From contig NZ_KZ119600.1 in the NCBI RefSeq assembly GCF_002153425.1, positions 1,029,714-1,093,713 on the forward strand: a DNA stretch of 64,000 bases. The letters run 5' to 3'. Position numbers and translations under genes: made by a program. The notes under the pieces were generated by a model that was given only the letters and a program-made list of their open reading frames with translations, was not told the origin of the DNA and did no database searches. Below are positions 55,554-64,000 of the stretch, piece after piece (the stretch's first letter is position 1; the number at the start of each line of letters is the position of its first letter). This DNA comes from Litchfieldia alkalitelluris (GTDB lineage: Bacteria; Bacillota; Bacilli; Bacillales; Salisediminibacteriaceae).

Positions 55554-56303
55554 TCATCTATGTGCAGTCAAATATGTTTTTAATAAATCATAGGGAATGG
55601 AGACTCTCTCATTGTTAATATCCAAAAGATTACTATTATCATCTTCATTCCAGTGAGCTTCTTCCCTCAAAGTGTTAATTTCCCTATGGATAGACTCCAT
55701 TCTTTTATCAAGCATCGCAGCAGAAATAGCAGCATCACGAAGTTCTTCCACTAACCTCTCTGGAATTTCGCTATTATATTTGTAATAAATTTTGTGTTCT
55801 AAACTAGCCCAAAAATCCATGGCGATCGTCCTAATCTGAACTTCAACATAAACTTGTTCCTCGCGGTCGGACATGAAAATTGGAATTTGAACGATTAAAT
55901 GAAGACTTTGATATCCATTTGGCTTAGGGTTTTTTATATAATCTTTGACCTCCACTACAGTGAGATCTTTCTGATTTTGAAGCATATTGCTCAATTCATA
56001 AATATCAGAGATAAATGAACAAGTAATTCGTATACCAGCAATATCACGAATCTTCTCCTTAATGAGTGGGAGGGACATATCATACTGTTTTTTACGGACC
56101 TTTTTGACAATACTTTCAGGGGATTTTACCCGCGATTTTATATGTTCAATAGGATTATAATCGTGAATGTATTGAAACTCTTGCTTTAATATATCAATTT
56201 TTGTATTCATTTCATCGAGTGCGAATTTATAAGACATCATAAACCTTGTTATTTCATTTTTTATGGTTTTCAGGTGATTCATGTCAATCGTCTGTTGAAC
56301 CAT
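55554..56303 (-). CDS. Small alarmone synthetase, GTP pyrophosphokinase (RelQ/RelP type)
   Basis: 249 residues from the ATG at 56303, 9 bases after AAAGGAG; a TTG at 56312 directly abuts that site. The synthetase motifs are clear: KSPESIVKKVRKK, DIAGIRITCSFISDIYEL, NPKPNGYQSLHLIV, EVQIRTIAMDFWASLEHKIYYK. The hydrolase, TGS and ACT domains of long Rel are absent. It makes (p)ppGpp from ATP and GDP/GTP. It is longer than the usual about 210 residues owing to a C-terminal extension. RelQ versus RelP cannot be decided by eye. Confidence 0.9.
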   Translation of the reverse strand: MVQQTIDMNHLKTIKNEITRFMMSYKFALDEMNTKIDILKQEFQYIHDYNPIEHIKSRVKSPESIVKKVRKKQYDMSLPLIKEKIRDIAGIRITCSFISDIYELSNMLQNQKDLTVVEVKDYIKNPKPNGYQSLHLIVQIPIFMSDREEQVYVEVQIRTIAMDFWASLEHKIYYKYNSEIPERLVEELRDAAISAAMLDKRMESIHREINTLREEAHWNEDDNSNLLDINNERVSIPYDLLKTYLTAHR

Positions 56304-56645
56304 GGTTGACAACTCCTTTGAGTTTACTAATGTTTAATAGTCATTTTTTAAATCCATTTCGTATTTACCCTCTTATAGAAAAAAATAAGCTCTGTTTCAT
56401 TACTTTTTTTAAAGTCTAAATGACTGACCGTACGTTCAATAAAAGAATTAACAATATAGATTGTTAGTCATTGGATTGAGACATACCCTTTGATGCAATA
56501 TATAATATAACAAAGCAATATGAACAGAAAATGAACAAAGTAAAAAAAATAATCAACAACGTTTAGTTCTATGAAGTGGTTTTGACCAATTGGTCAACGT
56601 AGGGGTATAATAAATGATGTAATGGATAGTGAGGGGTGAAGACCA
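56304..56645. other. Divergent gap with a TetR operator
   Basis: About 340 AT-rich bases between the alarmone synthetase and tetR genes. Besides the operator/promoter at 56582-56611, nothing was recognised. Confidence 0.4.
56582..56611 (+). promoter_or_regulatory. tetR promoter covered by a 16-bp perfect palindrome
   Basis: TTGACCAATTGGTCAA (56582-56597) is fully symmetrical. Its left end doubles as a -35 (TTGACC), and TATAAT (56606-56611) lies 18 bp further on. A repressor bound here would exclude polymerase, pointing to autorepression by the TetR encoded just downstream. Confidence 0.75.
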
Positions 56646-57509
56646 ATGTTAGAAAAAGAAAAACTTATTATAGAAGCAGCCATCAAGCTTTTTTCCATAA
56701 AAGGATTTGATGCAACATCCATTCAAGATATTGCAAATGAATGTGGGATTGCTAAAGGTTCTTTTTATTCCTATTTTAAATCGAAAGACACCTTATTATT
56801 AGAGACACTAAAGTATTATTTCAACAAAATACAAAGCCGTGTTGAATCTGTTGAAGAATTAGACTTAGAGCCTAAGGAAAAGTTTATTAGAAGGCTGACT
56901 TATTATTTTGAAGGTGTCTTTGAGCATAAGGAATTCATTATTACACAGGCATACGAACAGGCTATTCCATTAAACAAAACAATAAAAAGAGAGCTCTATC
57001 GAAGACAGCAACGTACGAGAGAGCTATACAGGATAGGATTATTATCATTATATGGGAACAAAATTGAACCATATATCTGGGACCTTTCCATTATGATGGA
57101 AGGAATGTTTCATGCCTATATCCGAATTTATCTTTTAGATGAAAAAGGATTAGAAGTGGGAAAGTTGTCCAAGTATATAGTTAACCGAATAGATAGTGTT
57201 GTGGAGGGGCTCCTACAAAGTGGAGAAGAACCAATTTTGTCTATTGATGATGTTAATTATATTAATCGATTATTAGGTAATGCCCCAGAAGATGAACGGA
57301 ACAAAGTATTTAAGCTAATAAGTGAGATGAAAAATGTGCTATCTGTTCGAGAAGACAGGGAGGATTATCTTGTTTCGTTAGAAGTGTTAGAAGAAGAGCT
57401 GAATAGGGAAAAACCTAGGCAGCCTGTTATTCAAGGAATGATTTCTAATTTTAAAGGCGTTAAAGAAGTGGACAAGTATTTAAATGAAATCAAACCCTTA
57501 TTAAAATAA
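56646..57509 (+). CDS. TetR-family regulator with extended C-terminus
   Basis: 287 residues, longer than the usual about 200. The DNA-binding domain (1-50) reads KLIIEAAIKLFSIKGFDATSIQDIANECGIAKGSFYSYFKSKDTLLLE. The ligand domain spans about 55-195, and a further charged helical stretch (about 200-287) is additional. TTGACCAATTGGTCAA upstream matches the TGACC/GGTCA half-sites used by several lipid- or drug-responsive TetR proteins. No exporter is adjacent, so it may act mostly on distant genes. Confidence 0.88.
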   Translation: MLEKEKLIIEAAIKLFSIKGFDATSIQDIANECGIAKGSFYSYFKSKDTLLLETLKYYFNKIQSRVESVEELDLEPKEKFIRRLTYYFEGVFEHKEFIITQAYEQAIPLNKTIKRELYRRQQRTRELYRIGLLSLYGNKIEPYIWDLSIMMEGMFHAYIRIYLLDEKGLEVGKLSKYIVNRIDSVVEGLLQSGEEPILSIDDVNYINRLLGNAPEDERNKVFKLISEMKNVLSVREDREDYLVSLEVLEEELNREKPRQPVIQGMISNFKGVKEVDKYLNEIKPLLK

Positions 57510-57618
57510 AGTTTTTTCCATTCATTTTTTGTTCATATTTCCATGGTATTGTAGTGAATATATTTATGAACTCTTTAATAAACACCTATATAAGATAGAA
57601 CGGGTGAGAAGGAGATTA

Positions 57619-57759
57619 ATGAACAAAATGATTAAGGATATAGAATTAAAAAAGCAAAAACTAGAAAAACTTGTTTCAAAGCTGCAGAAGCAAGGGGTTC
57701 ATGCAGAGCTGTGTATGAGAAAGTATCCGTCTCAAAAGCAGAGGAGAGACAATATATGA
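57619..57759 (+). CDS. 46-residue coiled-coil-like protein coupled to the two-component system
   Basis: The ATG at 57619 follows AGAAGGAG closely, and the stop overlaps the response-regulator ATG (ATGA). The protein is very basic and begins with a heptad-like helix (MIKDIELKKQKLEKLVSKLQKQG), here cited in part as IELKKQKLEKLVSKL. It has one Cys. I do not recognise it. A good ribosome site and 4-base overlap argue that it is translated; the function may be regulatory or simply to couple translation. Confidence 0.55.
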   Translation: MNKMIKDIELKKQKLEKLVSKLQKQGVHAELCMRKYPSQKQRRDNI

Positions 57760-58451
57760 AACAACAAATAAAGATACTAGTTATAGAAGATGATCCAAAT
57801 ATTAGTGATCTAACTGAATTATATTTGATGAAGGAGGGCTACCAAGTCATAAAAGCCTTAGATGGTGAGGCTGGACTAGCTCTTTATTATGATGAAAATC
57901 CTGATTTTATCATATTAGATATTATGCTACCTAAAATGGACGGGTGGGATGTATGTCAGGAGATTAGGAGAGACCGCCCGATTCCAATCATCATGATTAC
58001 TGGAAAAGGGGAAAGCTATGATAAAGTGAAAGGCTTGGAATTAGGGGCTGATGACTATATTGTAAAACCCTTTGATCCTAAAGAAGTGCTGGCTAGAATA
58101 AAAGCAGTATTACGTAGAACGAATCCACAGTTTTCATCACAAGAAAATGTGGAACTACCAGATTTGAGTATTAATATGCAGGAACATAAAATCATTGTAA
58201 ACCAAAAGGAAATCACCTTGCCACCTAAGGAGTTGGAGCTATTATTTTTCTTAGCGTCCAATCCAAACCAGGTTTTTACACGGCAGCAGTTGTTGGACCG
58301 CGTTTGGGGATATGATTATGATGGGGACTACAGGACAATTGATGTGCATATAAAGCGGCTTCGGGAAAAAATGCATCTAGGATCTGAGAGTTGGAACTTG
58401 AAAACAATTCGTGGTGTTGGTTATAAATTTGAGGTGTATGATGTTATCTAA
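57756..58451 (+). CDS. Two-component response regulator, OmpR family
   Basis: 231 residues from the ATG at 57756, 8 bases after GAGGAGA. Receiver domain (1-120) with the acidic pocket EDD, phospho-acceptor Asp55 (ILDIMLPKMDG), conserved Thr in MITGKG and Lys in YIVKPFDP. The C-terminal winged helix (about 135-228) has LPPKELELLFFLASNPNQVFTRQQLL and VDVHIKRLREK-like IDVHIKRLREK. Its stop overlaps the kinase start region, so the pair is coexpressed. Targets unknown. Confidence 0.93.
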   Translation: MKQQIKILVIEDDPNISDLTELYLMKEGYQVIKALDGEAGLALYYDENPDFIILDIMLPKMDGWDVCQEIRRDRPIPIIMITGKGESYDKVKGLELGADDYIVKPFDPKEVLARIKAVLRRTNPQFSSQENVELPDLSINMQEHKIIVNQKEITLPPKELELLFFLASNPNQVFTRQQLLDRVWGYDYDGDYRTIDVHIKRLREKMHLGSESWNLKTIRGVGYKFEVYDVI

Positions 58452-59859
58452 ATTAAGGAAGAAACGCAAAGGAATGTTCATCAAGCTATTCACAACTTAT
58501 ATAGTCATTCTTTGTATTTCGTTTATTATGATTGGTTTAGTAGTTAATACAATGGCTCACAATGAAATAATTAAACGTTATCATAATGCCTTTGACCATC
58601 AGAAAGAAAAGGTGATCCAATACTTTGAAACTGCCGAATCTGAGGGGTGGGAGCAAAGTATACTCACTTCTTCTTTAGAACTTGCACTAAATCAAGAAGA
58701 CAGGGTTGCAGTTTTTCTAATTGATGAGTATGGTGGAGTGGATTACAATCCGAAGCTATTTGAAGAATATGATATGGAAATGTCACTCCGAGAACTCGCC
58801 ATGAGTGAAGAAGAGACATCCATGCGCCTTCACACAGAGGATCGGGTTGTTTATTTTATGTCAGGGCCGATTGAAATTTTGACAGAAGATAATCCTAAAC
58901 ATACGATTACGATGGTATTTCATGAATTTGATCAAGAATTAAAGCAAATAAGCAGTATTATTCATATTACAGTTCTCGTGGCGATCATTATTGCTGGCAT
59001 CATTATTTTTTATACTTCAAGAAAAATGACGTCTCCATTAAGGGAGATGAATCATAGTGCTTTGCAATTTGCAAAGGGAGATTTTTCTCACAGGGTAAAT
59101 ATCAAGTCGAAAGACGAAATTGGCCAGCTTGCTGAAACCTTCAATTATATGGCTAAAGAATTGGCCAGTATAGATCAGATGAGAAAAGACTTTGTTGCAA
59201 ATGTTTCCCATGACTTACGCTCCCCTTTAACTTCTATAAAAGGATTTTTAGGTGCGATGATGGACGGGACGATTCCGCAAGAACAGCAATACAAATATTT
59301 CTCTATCATGAAAAATGAAACAGAGCGTCTTATGAAACTCGTAAATGATTTATTAGATATGGCTAGGTTGGAAGCGGGACAGATGGAGGTGGAACCAATA
59401 TCCTACAATTTTTCTGAACAGCTCCGTTTAACAATAGCTAAAATGGAACCAACTTTGTCTGAAAACCAGCTTGATATTGAGCTATTAGGTGAGGAAGAAG
59501 ATGTTTTTGTTCACGCAGATCCGAACCGTATGGAGCAAGTCTTAGTAAATCTTCTTCAAAATGCTGTGCAGTTCTCTAAAGAGAAGGGAAGCATCGATGT
59601 AGCGATTATGAAGGAAGGGGATAATGCTACCATCAGGATACGTGATTACGGGCACGGTATGAGTGAATCAGATGTGAGATATATTTGGGAAAGGTTTTAT
59701 AAAAAGGATAAAGCAAGATCTAGTAAGAGTGGCACAGGAATTGGATTATCGATTGTAAAACATATTATTGATTTACACGATACAACTATTAAGGTGGAGA
59801 GTGATTTGGATAAAGGAACAACCTTTACCTTTACCTTACCCCTTGCAAAGCTTAAATAA
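58441..59859 (+). CDS. Two-component sensor histidine kinase
   Basis: 472 residues from the second ATG of ATGATG (58441), six bases after GAGG. Two membrane helices (about 15-38 and 175-200) flank an outer sensor of about 135 residues. HAMP follows (about 200-252), then the HisKA box VSHDLRSPL with phospho-acceptor His257, N box NLLQNAVQF, G1 RDYGHGM, F box IWERFYK and G2 GTGIGLSIVK. It overlaps the regulator gene by 11 bases and should phosphorylate it. The outer domain gives no ligand clue. Confidence 0.93.
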   Translation: MLSKLRKKRKGMFIKLFTTYIVILCISFIMIGLVVNTMAHNEIIKRYHNAFDHQKEKVIQYFETAESEGWEQSILTSSLELALNQEDRVAVFLIDEYGGVDYNPKLFEEYDMEMSLRELAMSEEETSMRLHTEDRVVYFMSGPIEILTEDNPKHTITMVFHEFDQELKQISSIIHITVLVAIIIAGIIIFYTSRKMTSPLREMNHSALQFAKGDFSHRVNIKSKDEIGQLAETFNYMAKELASIDQMRKDFVANVSHDLRSPLTSIKGFLGAMMDGTIPQEQQYKYFSIMKNETERLMKLVNDLLDMARLEAGQMEVEPISYNFSEQLRLTIAKMEPTLSENQLDIELLGEEEDVFVHADPNRMEQVLVNLLQNAVQFSKEKGSIDVAIMKEGDNATIRIRDYGHGMSESDVRYIWERFYKKDKARSSKSGTGIGLSIVKHIIDLHDTTIKVESDLDKGTTFTFTLPLAKLK

Positions 59860-59863
59860 ATAG

Positions 59864-59908
59864 AAACCTTAGGGGCCGACTACACGGAGTTGACGGTTCC
59901 TAAGGTTT
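59864..59908. terminator. Terminator after the two-component operon
   Basis: AAACCTTAGG pairs perfectly with CCTAAGGTTT; an inner GCCGACTAC/GTTGACGG region adds partial pairing. Between convergent genes. Confidence 0.75.
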
Positions 59909-59947
59909 AATATATTTATCTTATTTAATGAGTGCTCTCACGTTTGT

Positions 59948-60454
59948 TTAATAGGATTTTAGTTTTCTTGAATACCGCAACGACACCTGTTGTTCTCCAG
60001 TTTCCGTTTCAGTAAATCTTTTTTCTTTAAGTGAAAATCCTCGTGCTTCATAGAAAGGGAGTCCCCTATCATTATTTTCTTGGACGGAAACCCATTGTTC
60101 CGAAATCCCTTCTTGAATTTGCTGATGGGTTAACTCTTTAAGTAGCTTTCTCCCAACCCCTTTATATCTAAAATTTTCGTCAACATAAAGTACAAATATT
60201 TCTCCTGTTTCTTCTTTCGTTTTTCCACCACCAATTACTCCGACAACTTCTGAATGAAGTAATGCGACGTAAGAGTAAGATCCTGCTTCTATGTCTTTCT
60301 TAACTCGTTCGTAGTTGTACCAGTATTCTATATTTTTGGCTTGATATTCTTCGCTTAATATCCCTTCAACTGTTTGTCTCCAACCTCTTGAACAAATATC
60401 AGCAATAGCTTCTGCATGGGTTATTTCAGGATTTTTAATTAGAATATAGTTCAT
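59948..60454 (-). CDS. GNAT-family N-acetyltransferase
   Basis: 168 residues. The acetyl-CoA binding motif A is present as VLYVDENFRYKGVGRKLLKELT (R-x-x-G-x-G/A in RYKGVG). A motif-B-like C-terminus reads VQENNDRGLPFYEARGF. The N-terminal segment ADICSRGWRQTVEGILSEEYQA is typical of a broad GNAT group. Cytoplasmic; substrate unknown. It lies 40 bases downstream of the S9 peptidase gene on the same strand. Confidence 0.87.
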   Translation of the reverse strand: MNYILIKNPEITHAEAIADICSRGWRQTVEGILSEEYQAKNIEYWYNYERVKKDIEAGSYSYVALLHSEVVGVIGGGKTKEETGEIFVLYVDENFRYKGVGRKLLKELTHQQIQEGISEQWVSVQENNDRGLPFYEARGFSLKEKRFTETETGEQQVSLRYSRKLKSY

Positions 60455-60494
60455 TTAGTAAGCACCTCTGTTTTTTCATGTAGAGATGAAACCC

Positions 60495-62318
60495 CTATGC
60501 TTGCTTCCCTTTTAAGTGTTTATTCAGAAACTCTAGTATTGCTTTGAAGCCAGTTATGCGATTAATCTTTTTCGAAAAACCATGTCCCTCATCTTCAAAA
60601 ACCAGGTATTCTATTGGTACTCCATTGTTCCTAACTATATCTACAATCTCATCAGACTCCACCTTTAAAACCCTAGGGTCATTGGAGCCTTGAAGGACGA
60701 TTAAAGGCTTGCGAATTTTATCAGCATGAAACAGGGGAGAAATACTTTTTAAATATTCTTCAGAAGTAAAAGGGTCACCTATTTTTTTATAAAGGGCTTC
60801 ACGCATTGTCTCCCACCATGACGGGATACTCTTCAGCGTACGAACCCAGTTTGAGACACCGAAAATATCAACGCCTACTTGAAATTCTTCTGGCTGGAAC
60901 GCTAAGGCAGCCAATGTCATGTAACCACCGTAGCTTCCTCCAATAATACCAATTCGGTTTTCATCGATATATCCAGTAGAAGCAAGGAAGGATTTCGATT
61001 CAATACAATCGGCCAGATCCACTTCGCCATGTTTTAAGTCAGCCATTTTGAAAAATGTTTTCCCGTACCCTGAACTTCCACGGTTGTTCACAGCAATTAC
61101 TGCATATCCATGATTAGCCAAGTATTGCAGTAATGGATTATAATCCACCCTTGACTGTCCTCCTGGCCCACCATGAACCCAAACGAGGGCTGGGATCTTA
61201 TCTCCTGGTTTTATATCCTTGGGCTTGTAGTAGATCGAAGGTATTTCCAGGCCATCAAATGACGGATATCGAACTACTTCTGCCTTTACTAAATCTGCAG
61301 GATCAATCTCAGGGTTCAATGTATTTGTTAATTTGTCGAGTTTATTTTTTTCTAGATTATACACATATAAATTACTAGGTGAGTTCGATCCATTAAGAAG
61401 GAAAGTCATGATTTTTTCATCTAGGGAAAAATTGACGCTAGTTATTTGTCCATCTGGTAGTTCTGGCAGAGTTACTTCATTATTTGTACCAGTATGAAAG
61501 ATTTTTACGTCAGTGTGTGCATCCCTATTAATACTAAGCTTTATGTATGTATGATTATGGGTAAAAGATAGGTCTTCTACATGCCAGTCTGTTTTGTAGA
61601 CTACTTCAACTTCCCCCGTTTCTAAGTGCATTTTAGATGCATACAAGAATTCGTGATCCTTATCTGTAATGTAGTAGAGATACTTTCCATCTTCACTAAA
61701 GGCCTGTGGCGCATATTGTATGTCCGTATCTTTATGTGAAGTTAGAGCTTCCAATTTTCCAGTGTTTATATGGAAAATGTACATGTGAGAGGAATTCGCG
61801 TTGTCGAATTTAGTCAATGCCAATGTTTCATAGTCTTTTGATATAGCAGAGAACTCCACACCCAGTTCGTTTTTGAAGATAAGTCTTTTCTCAAACGTAT
61901 CAATATCCATTGAATAGACATCTGCAAATTTTGGATCCCTTTTATTTGAACCATATAAAAAGCTTTTTCCGTCAGGGGCCCATTGGAAGAATGTTGCCCT
62001 TTCCTCTTTATCAGGTGTCAAATCTCGTGTTGTTCCATCTTCCTTCTGTAGGTAGATGTGTAAAATTTCATTCCCACCTTGATCGCTCAAATAGAGGAAA
62101 CGATTATCACCAGGTTGCGGAACAAAGGAAATGGCGTAGCAAGCATCTTCTTTCGAGTTGGTTAACTGTTTAGCTTCTCCTCCATTGGAAGGTATGGAGT
62201 AAACATTAAAGACCCCAGATCGATCGCTTGTAAAAATAATTTTTTCCCTATTTGCTGAAGGTGCGTTGTTAACTACTGTCTCCGTATTAATAAACTGCTC
62301 AATGGTATACTTTTTCAA
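60495..62318 (-). CDS. S9 family serine peptidase (prolyl oligopeptidase / acylaminoacyl-peptidase type)
   Basis: 607 residues. The N-terminal part (about 25-340) is a WD40/PD40-like propeller (repeated S-x-DG-K/R-x-L segments). The C-terminal alpha/beta hydrolase (about 355-605) carries GGSYGGYM with nucleophile Ser462, Asp547 in GSNDPRV and His579 in EDEGHGF. The oxyanion region WVHGGPGGQ is intact. No signal peptide, so it is cytoplasmic and trims short peptides that pass the propeller pore. It is probably cotranscribed with the GNAT gene. Confidence 0.9.
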   Translation of the reverse strand: MKKYTIEQFINTETVVNNAPSANREKIIFTSDRSGVFNVYSIPSNGGEAKQLTNSKEDACYAISFVPQPGDNRFLYLSDQGGNEILHIYLQKEDGTTRDLTPDKEERATFFQWAPDGKSFLYGSNKRDPKFADVYSMDIDTFEKRLIFKNELGVEFSAISKDYETLALTKFDNANSSHMYIFHINTGKLEALTSHKDTDIQYAPQAFSEDGKYLYYITDKDHEFLYASKMHLETGEVEVVYKTDWHVEDLSFTHNHTYIKLSINRDAHTDVKIFHTGTNNEVTLPELPDGQITSVNFSLDEKIMTFLLNGSNSPSNLYVYNLEKNKLDKLTNTLNPEIDPADLVKAEVVRYPSFDGLEIPSIYYKPKDIKPGDKIPALVWVHGGPGGQSRVDYNPLLQYLANHGYAVIAVNNRGSSGYGKTFFKMADLKHGEVDLADCIESKSFLASTGYIDENRIGIIGGSYGGYMTLAALAFQPEEFQVGVDIFGVSNWVRTLKSIPSWWETMREALYKKIGDPFTSEEYLKSISPLFHADKIRKPLIVLQGSNDPRVLKVESDEIVDIVRNNGVPIEYLVFEDEGHGFSKKINRITGFKAILEFLNKHLKGKQA

Positions 62319-62614
62319 AATCTTTCCCCTCCTTGTCCTTTATTAATAGGTTCGCTGTTTAAGACTATAATCCTTTTTTTTACATAATTAGTCTTGGGCG
62401 TCTTGGAAGTAGGAGTAATGTAATGTGAAGGGGGTTGGCTGGTTTGAGAGGATGCGGGGTGGGGTTTTTGAGGAGAGGGGGTTGGGGGGCAGGGATGGCG
62501 GATTAGGGGAGAGGGGGGAGACGGGATGCGGAGGACGGGGACGGGAGAAAATTTATGTAGAGGTGCTTGATGTGAGGTTATGGAGTGGAGTTAAGGTACT
62601 ATTCGATGATGGAA
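62319..62614. other. Gene-free stretch with a G-rich tract
   Basis: After an AT-rich promoter region of the S9 gene, the plus strand becomes extremely G-rich from 62430 to 62545, with about eleven runs of three to six G. An open frame of 79 codons through it is low-complexity and has no credible family features, so it is not called. Confidence 0.6.
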
Positions 62615-63706
62615 GTGCCCGAAGTGTCTGGGAGTTCGGAGCTTCGGGCAGTAAAATGAGTTGATAGTGCCCGAAGCGTTTAGGAGTTCGGAGCTTCGGG
62701 CAGTAAAATGAATTGATAGTGCCCGAAGTGGTAGAGAGTCGCTTGCTCCGGGCAGTATTATGAGTTGATAGTTCCCGAAGTGTCTGGGAGTTCGGAGCTT
62801 CGGGCAGTAAAATGAATTGATAGTGCCCGAAGTGGTAGAGAGTCGCTTGCTCCGGGCAGTATTATGAGTTGATAGTTCCCGAAGTGTCTGGGAGTTCGGA
62901 GCTTCGGGCAGTAAAATGAATTGATAGTGCCCGAAGCGTTTAGGAGTTCGGAGCTTCGGGCAGTAAAATGAGTTGATAGTGCCCGAAGCGTTTAGGAGTT
63001 GAGTGCTTCAGGCACCAATATGAGTTGATAGTGCCCGAAGTGGTAGAGAGTCGCTTGCTCCGGGCAGTATTATGAGTTGATAGTTCCCGAAGTGTCTGGG
63101 AGTTCGGAGCTTCGGGCAGTAAAATGAGTTGATAGTGCCCGAAGCGTTTAGGAGTTCGGAGCTTCGGGCAGTAAAATGAATTGATAGTGCCCGAAGTGGT
63201 AGAGAGTTCGGAGTTCTGGGCAGTAATATGATTAGATAGTGCCCGAAGCCATCAGGATTTCTGTGCTTCGGGCACTAATACGAGTTGATAGTGCCCGAAG
63301 CGTTTAGGAGTTCGGAGCTTCGGGCAGTAAAATGAATTGATAGTGCCCGAAGTGGTAGAGAGTTCGGAGTTCTGGGCAGTAATATGATTAGATAGTGCCC
63401 GAAGCCATCAGGATTTCTGTGCTTCGGGCAGTAAAATGAGTTGATAGTGCCCGAAGCGTTAGAGAGTCGCGTGCTCCGGGCAGTATTATGAGTTGATAGT
63501 TCCCGAAGCGTCTGGGAGTCGCGTGCTTCGGGCATTATTATGATTTTATAGTTCCCGAAGCGTTTGGGAGTTCAGTGCTCCGGGCACTAATATGAATTGA
63601 TAGTGCCCGAAGTGTCTGGGAGTTCGGAGCTTCGGGCAGTAAAATGAGTTGATAGTGCCCGAAGCGTTTAGGAGTTCGGAGCTTCGGGCACTATTAAGAG
63701 TTGGTG
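62615..63706 (+). repeat. 52-bp tandem array, class A, 21 copies in exact register
   Basis: The landmark GT(G/T)CCCGAAG recurs every 52 bp exactly, from 62615 to 63655 (20 intervals in 1040 bp). The commonest unit contains GCCCGAAGC and its perfect inverse GCTTCGGGC around a 15-base loop, then GTAAAATGA(G/A)TTGATA. Several unit types alternate to give higher-order repeats of 104 bp (62719-62926, again at 63031) and 156 bp (63135 and 63291). Because 52 is not a multiple of 3, frames shift in every unit; it is not coding. Confidence 0.95.
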
Positions 63707-63751
63707 GATCCTGAATCAATAAAAGCAACAAAGAATCAATATGAATTAATT
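63707..63751 (+). repeat. Degenerate transition unit between array classes A and B
   Basis: About 43-45 bp from TCCTGAATCAATAAAAGCAA to the first class B unit, with TCCTGAA in place of GCCCGAA. It appears to be a decayed unit with a 9-bp deletion. Confidence 0.6.
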
Positions 63752-64000
63752 GCCCGAACCAGAAGAGCCGACCTTGTAAAGGTAAAATAAATTGGTTTTA
63801 ATTGCCCGAAAGAGATGAGCCAACCTTGTAAAGGTAAAATAAATTGGTTTTAATTGCCCGAAGGCGAAGAGTCGACCTAGTAAAGGTAAAATAAACTGGA
63901 TTTAATTGCCCGAACCAGAAGAGCCAACCTAGTAAAGGTAAAATAAACTGGATTTAATTGCCCGAACTTGAAGAGCAACCTAGTAAAGGTAAAATAAAAC
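63752..64000 (+). repeat. 52-bp tandem array, class B, running off the window end
   Basis: GCCCGAA recurs at 63752, 63804, 63856, 63908 and 63960, exactly 52 bp apart. Each unit also has (T/A)GTAAAGGTAAAATAAA and TTTAATT. The last copy is cut by the window edge. The same unit occurs inverted and degenerate at 14037-14250. It shares the 52-bp length and GCCCGAA start with class A, suggesting a common origin. Confidence 0.93.

Follow-up and report, generated by a model that had tools for sequence, protein, structure and literature searches.

A tandem array of 52-bp units in Litchfieldia alkalitelluris as a member of a genome-wide satellite class with a candidate NERD-domain partner

Results

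Two adjacent 52-bp arrays in the window

The window, a stretch of 64,000 nucleotides from the genome of Litchfieldia alkalitelluris, ends in two tandem arrays. Array 1 (62614..63705, + strand, taken as the strand on which TGCCCGAA reads) is built of 21 units of 52 bp that carry TGCCCGAA or TTCCCGAA, as seen both with TRF (62614-63703, period 52, 21.0 copies) and in a unit table set up in fixed register, where the units are free of indels and differ from the consensus by 2-11 mismatches each. The first-pass annotation, made from the sequence alone, had described a 21-copy array of exact 52-bp units, and this description holds, its coordinates (62615-63706) being off by one. An inverted box, present as TTCGGGCA, TCCGGGCA and variants, lies 27 bases after TGCCCGAA/TTCCCGAA, and CCCGAAG occurs in 21/21 units. 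No ORF longer than 86 aa overlaps the array, and the period of 52 bp is not divisible by three, indicating that it is non-coding.

The gene flanking array 1 (60495..62318, - strand) encodes a 607-aa protein, which we take to be S9-peptidase-like, and its start faces the array. The flank of the array itself (62381..62613, + strand) is G-rich and C-poor (46% G, 6% C); it carries eight runs of four to six G and might form a quadruplex. On the other side, a junction of 40 bp (63706..63745, no strand) leads to array 2 (63746..64000, + strand, continuing to approximately 64096 beyond the window), which is absent from the first-pass annotation and consists of 52-bp units with TGCCCGAA and AAAGGTAA. 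The two arrays differ in sequence, their common element being TGCCCGAA at 52-bp spacing; this pattern has 20 matches in the window (both arrays, both strands) versus 0 in 100 shuffles.

Comparison of array 1 to phages and plasmids by blastn gave no match, and the Rfam scan of 56000-64000 (E-value limit 1) gave a single one, at 25.3 bits versus a gathering score of 44. We found no orthologous locus of the window array within the genus, where homologues of the flanking protein were at most 34% identical, or were parts of paralogues from L. alkalitelluris itself.

Array 1 includes 14 distinct units among its 21, and some of them recur in blocks. Units 3-4 are identical to 5-6 and differ from 9-10 by one base in total, as had been noticed initially; units 11-12 are identical to 14-15, and the proposed extension of this repeat to a triplet (11-12-13 and 14-15-16) is approximate, units 13 and 16 showing three differences. 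When compared to 5000 reorderings of the units, near-identical doublets (P 0.0008), near-identical triplets (P 0.0096) and exact doublets (P 0.027) were in excess. Over the array as a whole, similarity at lags of two and three units was not significant (z +0.5 and -0.5), and thus the satellite-like higher-order organisation put forward in the first-pass annotation survives as local duplication, and not as a uniform period of 104 or 156 bp. Periods of the 104/156 type were reported by TRF for other arrays, and 15/54 arrays have some lag with z < -3. The 9-bp dyad likewise exists; its attribution to 'most units' was overstated, since the exact pair GCCCGAAGC/GCTTCGGGC is found in 7/21 units and an 8-bp version in 9/21.

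An abundant class of satellites

A search of the genome with two window units, a check suggested from the outset, yielded 93 BLAST places that resemble them, nine of the best corresponding to the window array itself. The pattern TGCCCGAAG occurs 232 + 183 times in the genome versus 18 + 11 times for the reversed pattern. In twenty evenly spaced stretches (400 kb), we counted 11 arrays of the 51-53-bp class, one of which has 2.0 copies; extrapolation to the 4.88 Mb of the genome gives roughly 130. TGCCCGAA is present in none of the consensus units listed for this genome, and some families have a period of 51, indicating that several families of similar length and dissimilar sequence coexist in one genome. 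Array 1 is therefore best regarded as an ordinary solo member, and the interest lies in the class. A tandem array of a different kind, with 10 copies of 128 bp at 97%, was seen at C1:213337-214661 (L203 13337-14661).

Repeats of constant size and variable sequence were described by Subirana and Messeguer (2021; PMC8161180), with 51-53 nt repeats in approximately 30% of the Bacillus species of that study. Two of the B. cellulosilyticus families in its Table 1 match units of genome G007, and the window array falls within the same class by its period (51-53 nt) and copy number (at least 4). A unit of genome G001 was in turn found unchanged in a contig of Evansella tamaricis, and these two matches suggest Evansella as the genus. 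No function was known to the authors, who reported neither sequence conservation from one species to another nor a protein partner, and who suggested small RNAs or nucleoid proteins. The view that this organisation is rare in bacteria does not hold for the present genome, with a density of 11 arrays per 400 kb, and the proportion of species in that survey also speaks against it. The first-pass annotation had counted a known repeat family with an established role against its reading: the class is indeed known, and the role is not established.

The arrays are not evenly placed with respect to genes. When considering gaps with an ORF on both sides, as delimited by a simple longest-ORF script, 39/122 of those with an array are convergent versus 111/798 of the other gaps of at least 80 bp (Fisher 4e-6). 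In loci from other genomes, the array is co-oriented with both neighbours in 29 cases and opposed to both in 11, a bias that hints at a link to transcription; the corresponding values for L. alkalitelluris loci are 4 and 5. Conservation of position was considered and not retained: 3/8 array sides in relatives have an array at the L. alkalitelluris homologue as well, versus 2/98 (P 0.003), in a comparison of small numbers for which 20/40 of the L. alkalitelluris stretches and those of G003 had been chosen for their arrays.

A core in fixed phase across genus labels

Scanning of genome contigs for three copies of TGCCCGAA at 52-bp spacing identified at least 107 stretches. Among the matches listed, 103 arrays from other genomes, representing 49 species and 21 genus labels (some of the record names look wrong), could be put in register. 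They reveal a core that is composed of TGCCCGAA and of GG..A starting 30 bases after the TGCCCGAA start, and that is found under 16 genus labels among these matches. This second box (GG at 31-32, A at 35), which was not part of the search pattern, is present in 81/103 arrays and 38/49 species of the listed matches, and 30 other offsets average 0.027 and reach at most 0.097; TGCCCGAA arrays that do not carry it (11/49 listed species) were kept in all counts. Of the 1028 intervals measured between motif copies, 929 are exactly 52, and positions 9-27 hold little information between arrays (0.01-0.33 bits). The core contradicts the 'no sequence conservation' of PMC8161180 for the TGCCCGAA class; in that paper this was something observed and does not define the satellites.

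Several individual records deserve mention. A 'Bacillus subtilis DE0224' record (L108) contains a TGCCCGAA array with box 2, and the strain is perhaps misnamed; Table 4 of PMC8161180 gives no 51-53-nt repeats for B. subtilis. In the 'Chryseobacterium sp. ISL-80' record (L048, L065, L133), the proteins that flank L048 share 94-97% identity with their counterparts in Cytobacillus oceanisediminis (L117), so that this name looks wrong. In two Neobacillus species, the same gap is occupied by 52-bp arrays that differ in sequence and retain the period (L066 621-855, L121 5228-5572); this gap presumably lies between rnr and smpB. Arrays of about 20-21, 32 or 42 bp were seen in stretches of G009, G016 and G038 (L233-L242, L253-L262, L293-L302), and a separate partner protein may exist for the 20-21-nt class of PMC8161180.

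A dyad maintained by Watson-Crick pairs

Covariation was analysed on 77 cluster representatives of the 103 arrays from other genomes, with consensus units at most one mismatch from TGCCCGAA. Among these listed matches, the six top column pairs (40-48, 39-49, 38-50, 37-51, 41-47 and 36-52; z 3.5 to 7.9) form a stem, each shows four Watson-Crick types, and the next-best pair has a z of 3.1. With one array per species of the listed matches, the Watson-Crick fraction of the stem is 0.61 versus 0.30 when partners are shuffled (maximum 0.37). Within arrays, the loop varies most, and box 2 and the arms vary least. A second hairpin at unit positions 9-27 was considered and rejected, the values not being above those of shuffles (mean z -0.25 and -0.30).

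We then compared one-sided changes away from Watson-Crick pairs, which lead either to G-U (G-T in DNA) or to A-C. The GU:AC ratio is 49:69 with the window arrays left out, 31:29 for arrays next to co-directional genes as read on the sense strand, and 63:71 over families, the latter being calculated from those arrays, 71 among the 164 of 170, whose best stem is reached by at most 3/60 shuffles; by this plain best-stem measure 71/164 arrays stand out, and a strong dyad is thus not universal. As a control on the same data, tRNA acceptor stems gave 24:4, in a rough count (24/539 pairs in 'other', some stems out of register) that concerns pairs between genes, the array counts being changes within arrays. 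An RNA helix made from one strand should favour G-U, and since no such excess is seen, constraint on DNA is favoured; an RNA hairpin as the unit of selection was thus rejected for lack of wobble asymmetry. The dyad is kept by Watson-Crick pairs with no strand preference. This pattern would be compatible with hairpins or cruciforms in DNA, with a need for hairpins in the transcripts of both strands, and with template switching. The first-pass annotation had envisaged rows of hairpins in transcripts or single strands: such dyads do exist in the class and are under constraint, and the missing G-U excess speaks against selection of RNA hairpins from one strand.

A NERD-domain subfamily next to the arrays

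All-against-all comparison of 244 ORFs flanking the arrays identified one recurrent neighbour, a NERD-domain (PF08378) protein of approximately 300 aa. Five of these neighbours served to build an HMM, which was run against 3024 ORFs in the fetched loci. For all nine strong hits (the five, two more that were already known as neighbours, and two new ones), an array lies 15-203 bp away on the 3' side; none accompanies the three weak hits. Most of these loci had been fetched for their arrays, and subfamily genes were thus subsequently picked by protein homology alone. In this set of ten genes from five genomes, 10/10 are followed by a 51/52-bp array of 3.3 to 11 copies, which starts 27-267 bases into the 601-base downstream stretch; the baseline, measured in evenly spaced stretches of two genomes, is 11/484 ORFs with an array downstream. 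In genomes G089 (contig 13) and G094 (contig 39), a TGCCCGAA pair lies approximately 70-110 bp downstream of the NERD gene.

The NERD genes found in L. alkalitelluris lie elsewhere than in the window. An array follows each of the five subfamily genes and also one of the four other NERD genes, a sixth and more divergent one; the remaining three, outside the subfamily, had no 51-53 array in the stretch examined. The six NERD genes with arrays have six array families beside them, and each NERD gene examined is adjoined by its own unit sequence. Next to two of the genes outside the subfamily, we observed an open frame that resembles a restriction-endonuclease-type protein by eye (L313, C1:896900-897500) and a degenerate 38-bp repeat of 3.2 copies (L315, C1:4495450-4496050).

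All seven complete linked members score above the Pfam cut-off for PF08378 (43-67 bits versus 22.1). QID or QLD followed by (D/E)(I/V)K is present in the 7 linked members that are complete in this region, and the lysine is invariant in 9/9; D followed by (D/E)xK presumably corresponds to the PD-(D/E)XK nuclease motif. In the nine aligned members a CxxC...CxxC pattern (zinc ribbon) is invariant, and the C-terminal region is conserved; the structure model (pLDDT 82.7) has a helical C-terminal part. Among the top PDB matches in Foldseek are PD-(D/E)XK nucleases, with probabilities of up to 0.99 and a best E-value of 1.2e-3, none being below 1e-3, and they include the Nt.BspD6I nickase, Card1/Can2, R2 endonuclease, Bax1 and McrC. 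We regard the linked protein as a putative PD-(D/E)XK nuclease. According to PMC9040797, there had been no earlier work on what NERD does in bacteria.

Co-occurrence of the subfamily with the arrays

At a limit of E 1e-30, the subfamily is present in 111/299 genomes of the order, and TGCCCGAA pairs are present in 30/299. The subfamily is found in 29/30 genomes with TGCCCGAA pairs versus 82/269 without them (Fisher 5e-13, from lists matched by eye and in a test that ignores kinship; genomes and genes are related, so that P values here are too small). The exception, G010, has TGCCCGAA pairs and only distant NERD proteins, with no strong subfamily member. In sampled genomes, 51-53 arrays were seen in 5/5 that carry the subfamily (L. 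alkalitelluris, G003, G007, G016 and G017, the G003 stretches having been chosen for arrays) and in 0/6 that have no strong member (G009, G026, G031, G038, G040 and G047), G026 and G038 having weak NERD matches (E 1e-16 to 1e-18); the value of 0/6 leaves out two G038 arrays counted by script (103/104 bp), whose unit we read as approximately 20 bp. Subfamily members were sought in plasmids (limit 1e-20), phages (1e-10) and viral contigs, with no match.

Solo arrays from evenly spaced stretches share the family of the array linked to a NERD gene of the same genome, with identities of 0.81 in G016 and 0.63 in G017 (shuffle maxima 0.52 and 0.51). In L. alkalitelluris, three arrays with 51-bp units resemble the one that follows the sixth NERD gene, at identities of 0.69-0.90 (0.53 shuffled). 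By whole-unit identity, 17/39 arrays fall into one of the five other linked families, some barely above shuffles, leaving 22/39 unassigned. Array 2 belongs to the family beside the NERD gene at C1:719303-720202 (identity 0.67 versus a shuffle maximum of 0.52). Array 1 is not above shuffles, either in comparison to the five NERD-linked arrays (0.46 versus 0.52) or to L156 (0.46 versus 0.48), and shares with linked arrays only the box and the period.

Discussion

We propose, with a probability of roughly 60%, that the window array belongs, as a solo array, to the genome-wide 51/52-bp satellites, and that the trans-acting partner of these satellites is the chromosomal NERD-domain subfamily. The arrays would be binding or cutting sites of the putative NERD nuclease. 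The protein could recognise either the inverted boxes or a hairpin or cruciform formed by the unit, with approximately one site per five helical turns (51/52 bp). If it binds or nicks there and neighbouring units then serve as the template for repair, the unit would stay at 51/52 and the arrays would be homogenised and expanded; such repair would give the repeated two- and three-unit blocks. Solo arrays would be seeded at tolerated places, in excess at the 3' ends of convergent genes, and would be acted on in trans. The host could gain from this arrangement through the nucleoid, supercoiling or defence, or the two components could be a selfish pair; both are possible. A further step, which we advance tentatively and at somewhat less than even odds, is that a NERD nuclease and its cognate satellite constitute a two-component system of its own kind, in which each paralogue maintains and disperses its own family in trans, and in which the fixed period reflects the length of hairpin-forming DNA that the protein covers.

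Other explanations account for part of these observations. The arrays could act as RNA, as 3' extensions or small RNAs with hairpins involved in stability, sponging or processing, a possibility discussed in PMC8161180 and PMC8625621; the NERD protein would in that case either have RNA as its target or be under the control of the array 3' of its gene. This would fit the preference of arrays for 3' ends, the 29:11 orientation bias in loci from other genomes, the consistent location of the array 3' of the NERD genes examined, and the presence of B. coagulans arrays in RNA-seq according to a passage of PMC8625621. G-U is not above A-C even on the sense strand (31:29, and 49:69 overall, versus 24:4 in tRNA), and no Rfam family reaches its gathering score in 56000-64000, which makes a role in RNA unlikely. 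Neutral satellites, arising by slippage and unequal recombination, would explain the local block duplications of array 1, the equal numbers of G-T and A-C changes and the location at convergent 3' ends; covariation can come from template-switch mutation, which would supply the dyads, and the NERD link would reflect shared tolerant sites. Such a process leaves unexplained the 10/10 arrays downstream of subfamily genes as well as the fixed-phase core found under 16 genus labels among the matches listed and the constant 51/52 spacing (929/1028 intervals exactly 52), and we regard it as rather improbable.

A general DNA-binding protein could also coat phased sites as a nucleoid or supercoiling platform, with the NERD protein as one user only. 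The period close to five turns and the excess at convergent gene ends are in agreement with this possibility, which was proposed in PMC8161180; given that the core and dyads differ between families of one genome and that each NERD gene examined has its own unit sequence beside it, it appears quite doubtful. The suggestion of the first-pass annotation that a bound protein would sit on one face of the helix would be compatible with the 52-bp period, and 51-bp families occur in the same genome. The last candidate, arrays of the REP/BIME type generated by RAYT (Y1) single-strand transposases, draws on the hairpin-forming units (the 8-bp dyad in 9/21 window units), on the long Y1 ORFs of the L. alkalitelluris genome, and on Y1 matches in 9/9 genomes of the genus. 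G017 contradicts it, since a 51-bp array of 33 copies is found there in a genome that gave no Y1 match, barring a Y1 gene that escaped the search or has disappeared, and none of five Y1 loci in L. alkalitelluris has a 52-bp array within approximately 1.5 kb; a Y1 transposase as array maker is thus very improbable. Separately, we note that four Y1_Tnp (RAYT-like) ORFs of 158-266 aa and one of IS200 type lie on C1 (L167-L170).

The proposed NERD partnership would give a first candidate partner to the constant-length satellites, which have been enigmatic as regards function, partner and the reason for 52. The subfamily lies immediately ahead of the arrays and tracks them across an order, which renders the question testable in common laboratory strains, and the little-studied NERD domain gains a candidate substrate. 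The core, the strand-neutral dyad and the NERD link go beyond the published accounts that we found; in our literature search, which covered papers outside subscription, no paper named both the NERD domain and tandem repeats, and three, PMC10910872 among them, mention NERD and repeats.

Known systems offer partial parallels. In CRISPR-Cas, a partly palindromic constant part alternates with a more variable part near a nuclease-type gene, and the units described here resemble this layout, a comparison also drawn in PMC8161180. They differ in that the variable parts of array 1 are near-copies and not unique spacers, so that its unit table does not show near-identical repeats separated by unique spacers, and in that approximately 130 arrays per genome are expected by extrapolation. 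A passage of PMC10910872 places NERD among putative CRISPR auxiliary genes. With respect to other NERD (PF08378) proteins, the linked subfamily is distinguished by its zinc ribbon, its helical C-terminal part and its linkage to satellites. REP/BIME elements with RAYT consist of hairpin units near 3' ends, with regular spacing and a dedicated protein family, all of which are features also seen here; the partner here is NERD and not Y1, a Y1 match is not found in every array-bearing genome (G017), and the unit is fixed at 51/52 bp. The closest relatives are the 52-nt Bacillus satellites (PMC8161180). Like the present arrays, they are non-coding, keep one period while varying in sequence, form several families within a genome and carry short signals in each unit; the present arrays differ from them by the core shared under 16 genus labels among the matches listed and by the linked NERD subfamily. 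NERD proteins and their arrays would join CRISPR-Cas and RAYT-REP as a further 'gene plus repeat array' arrangement.
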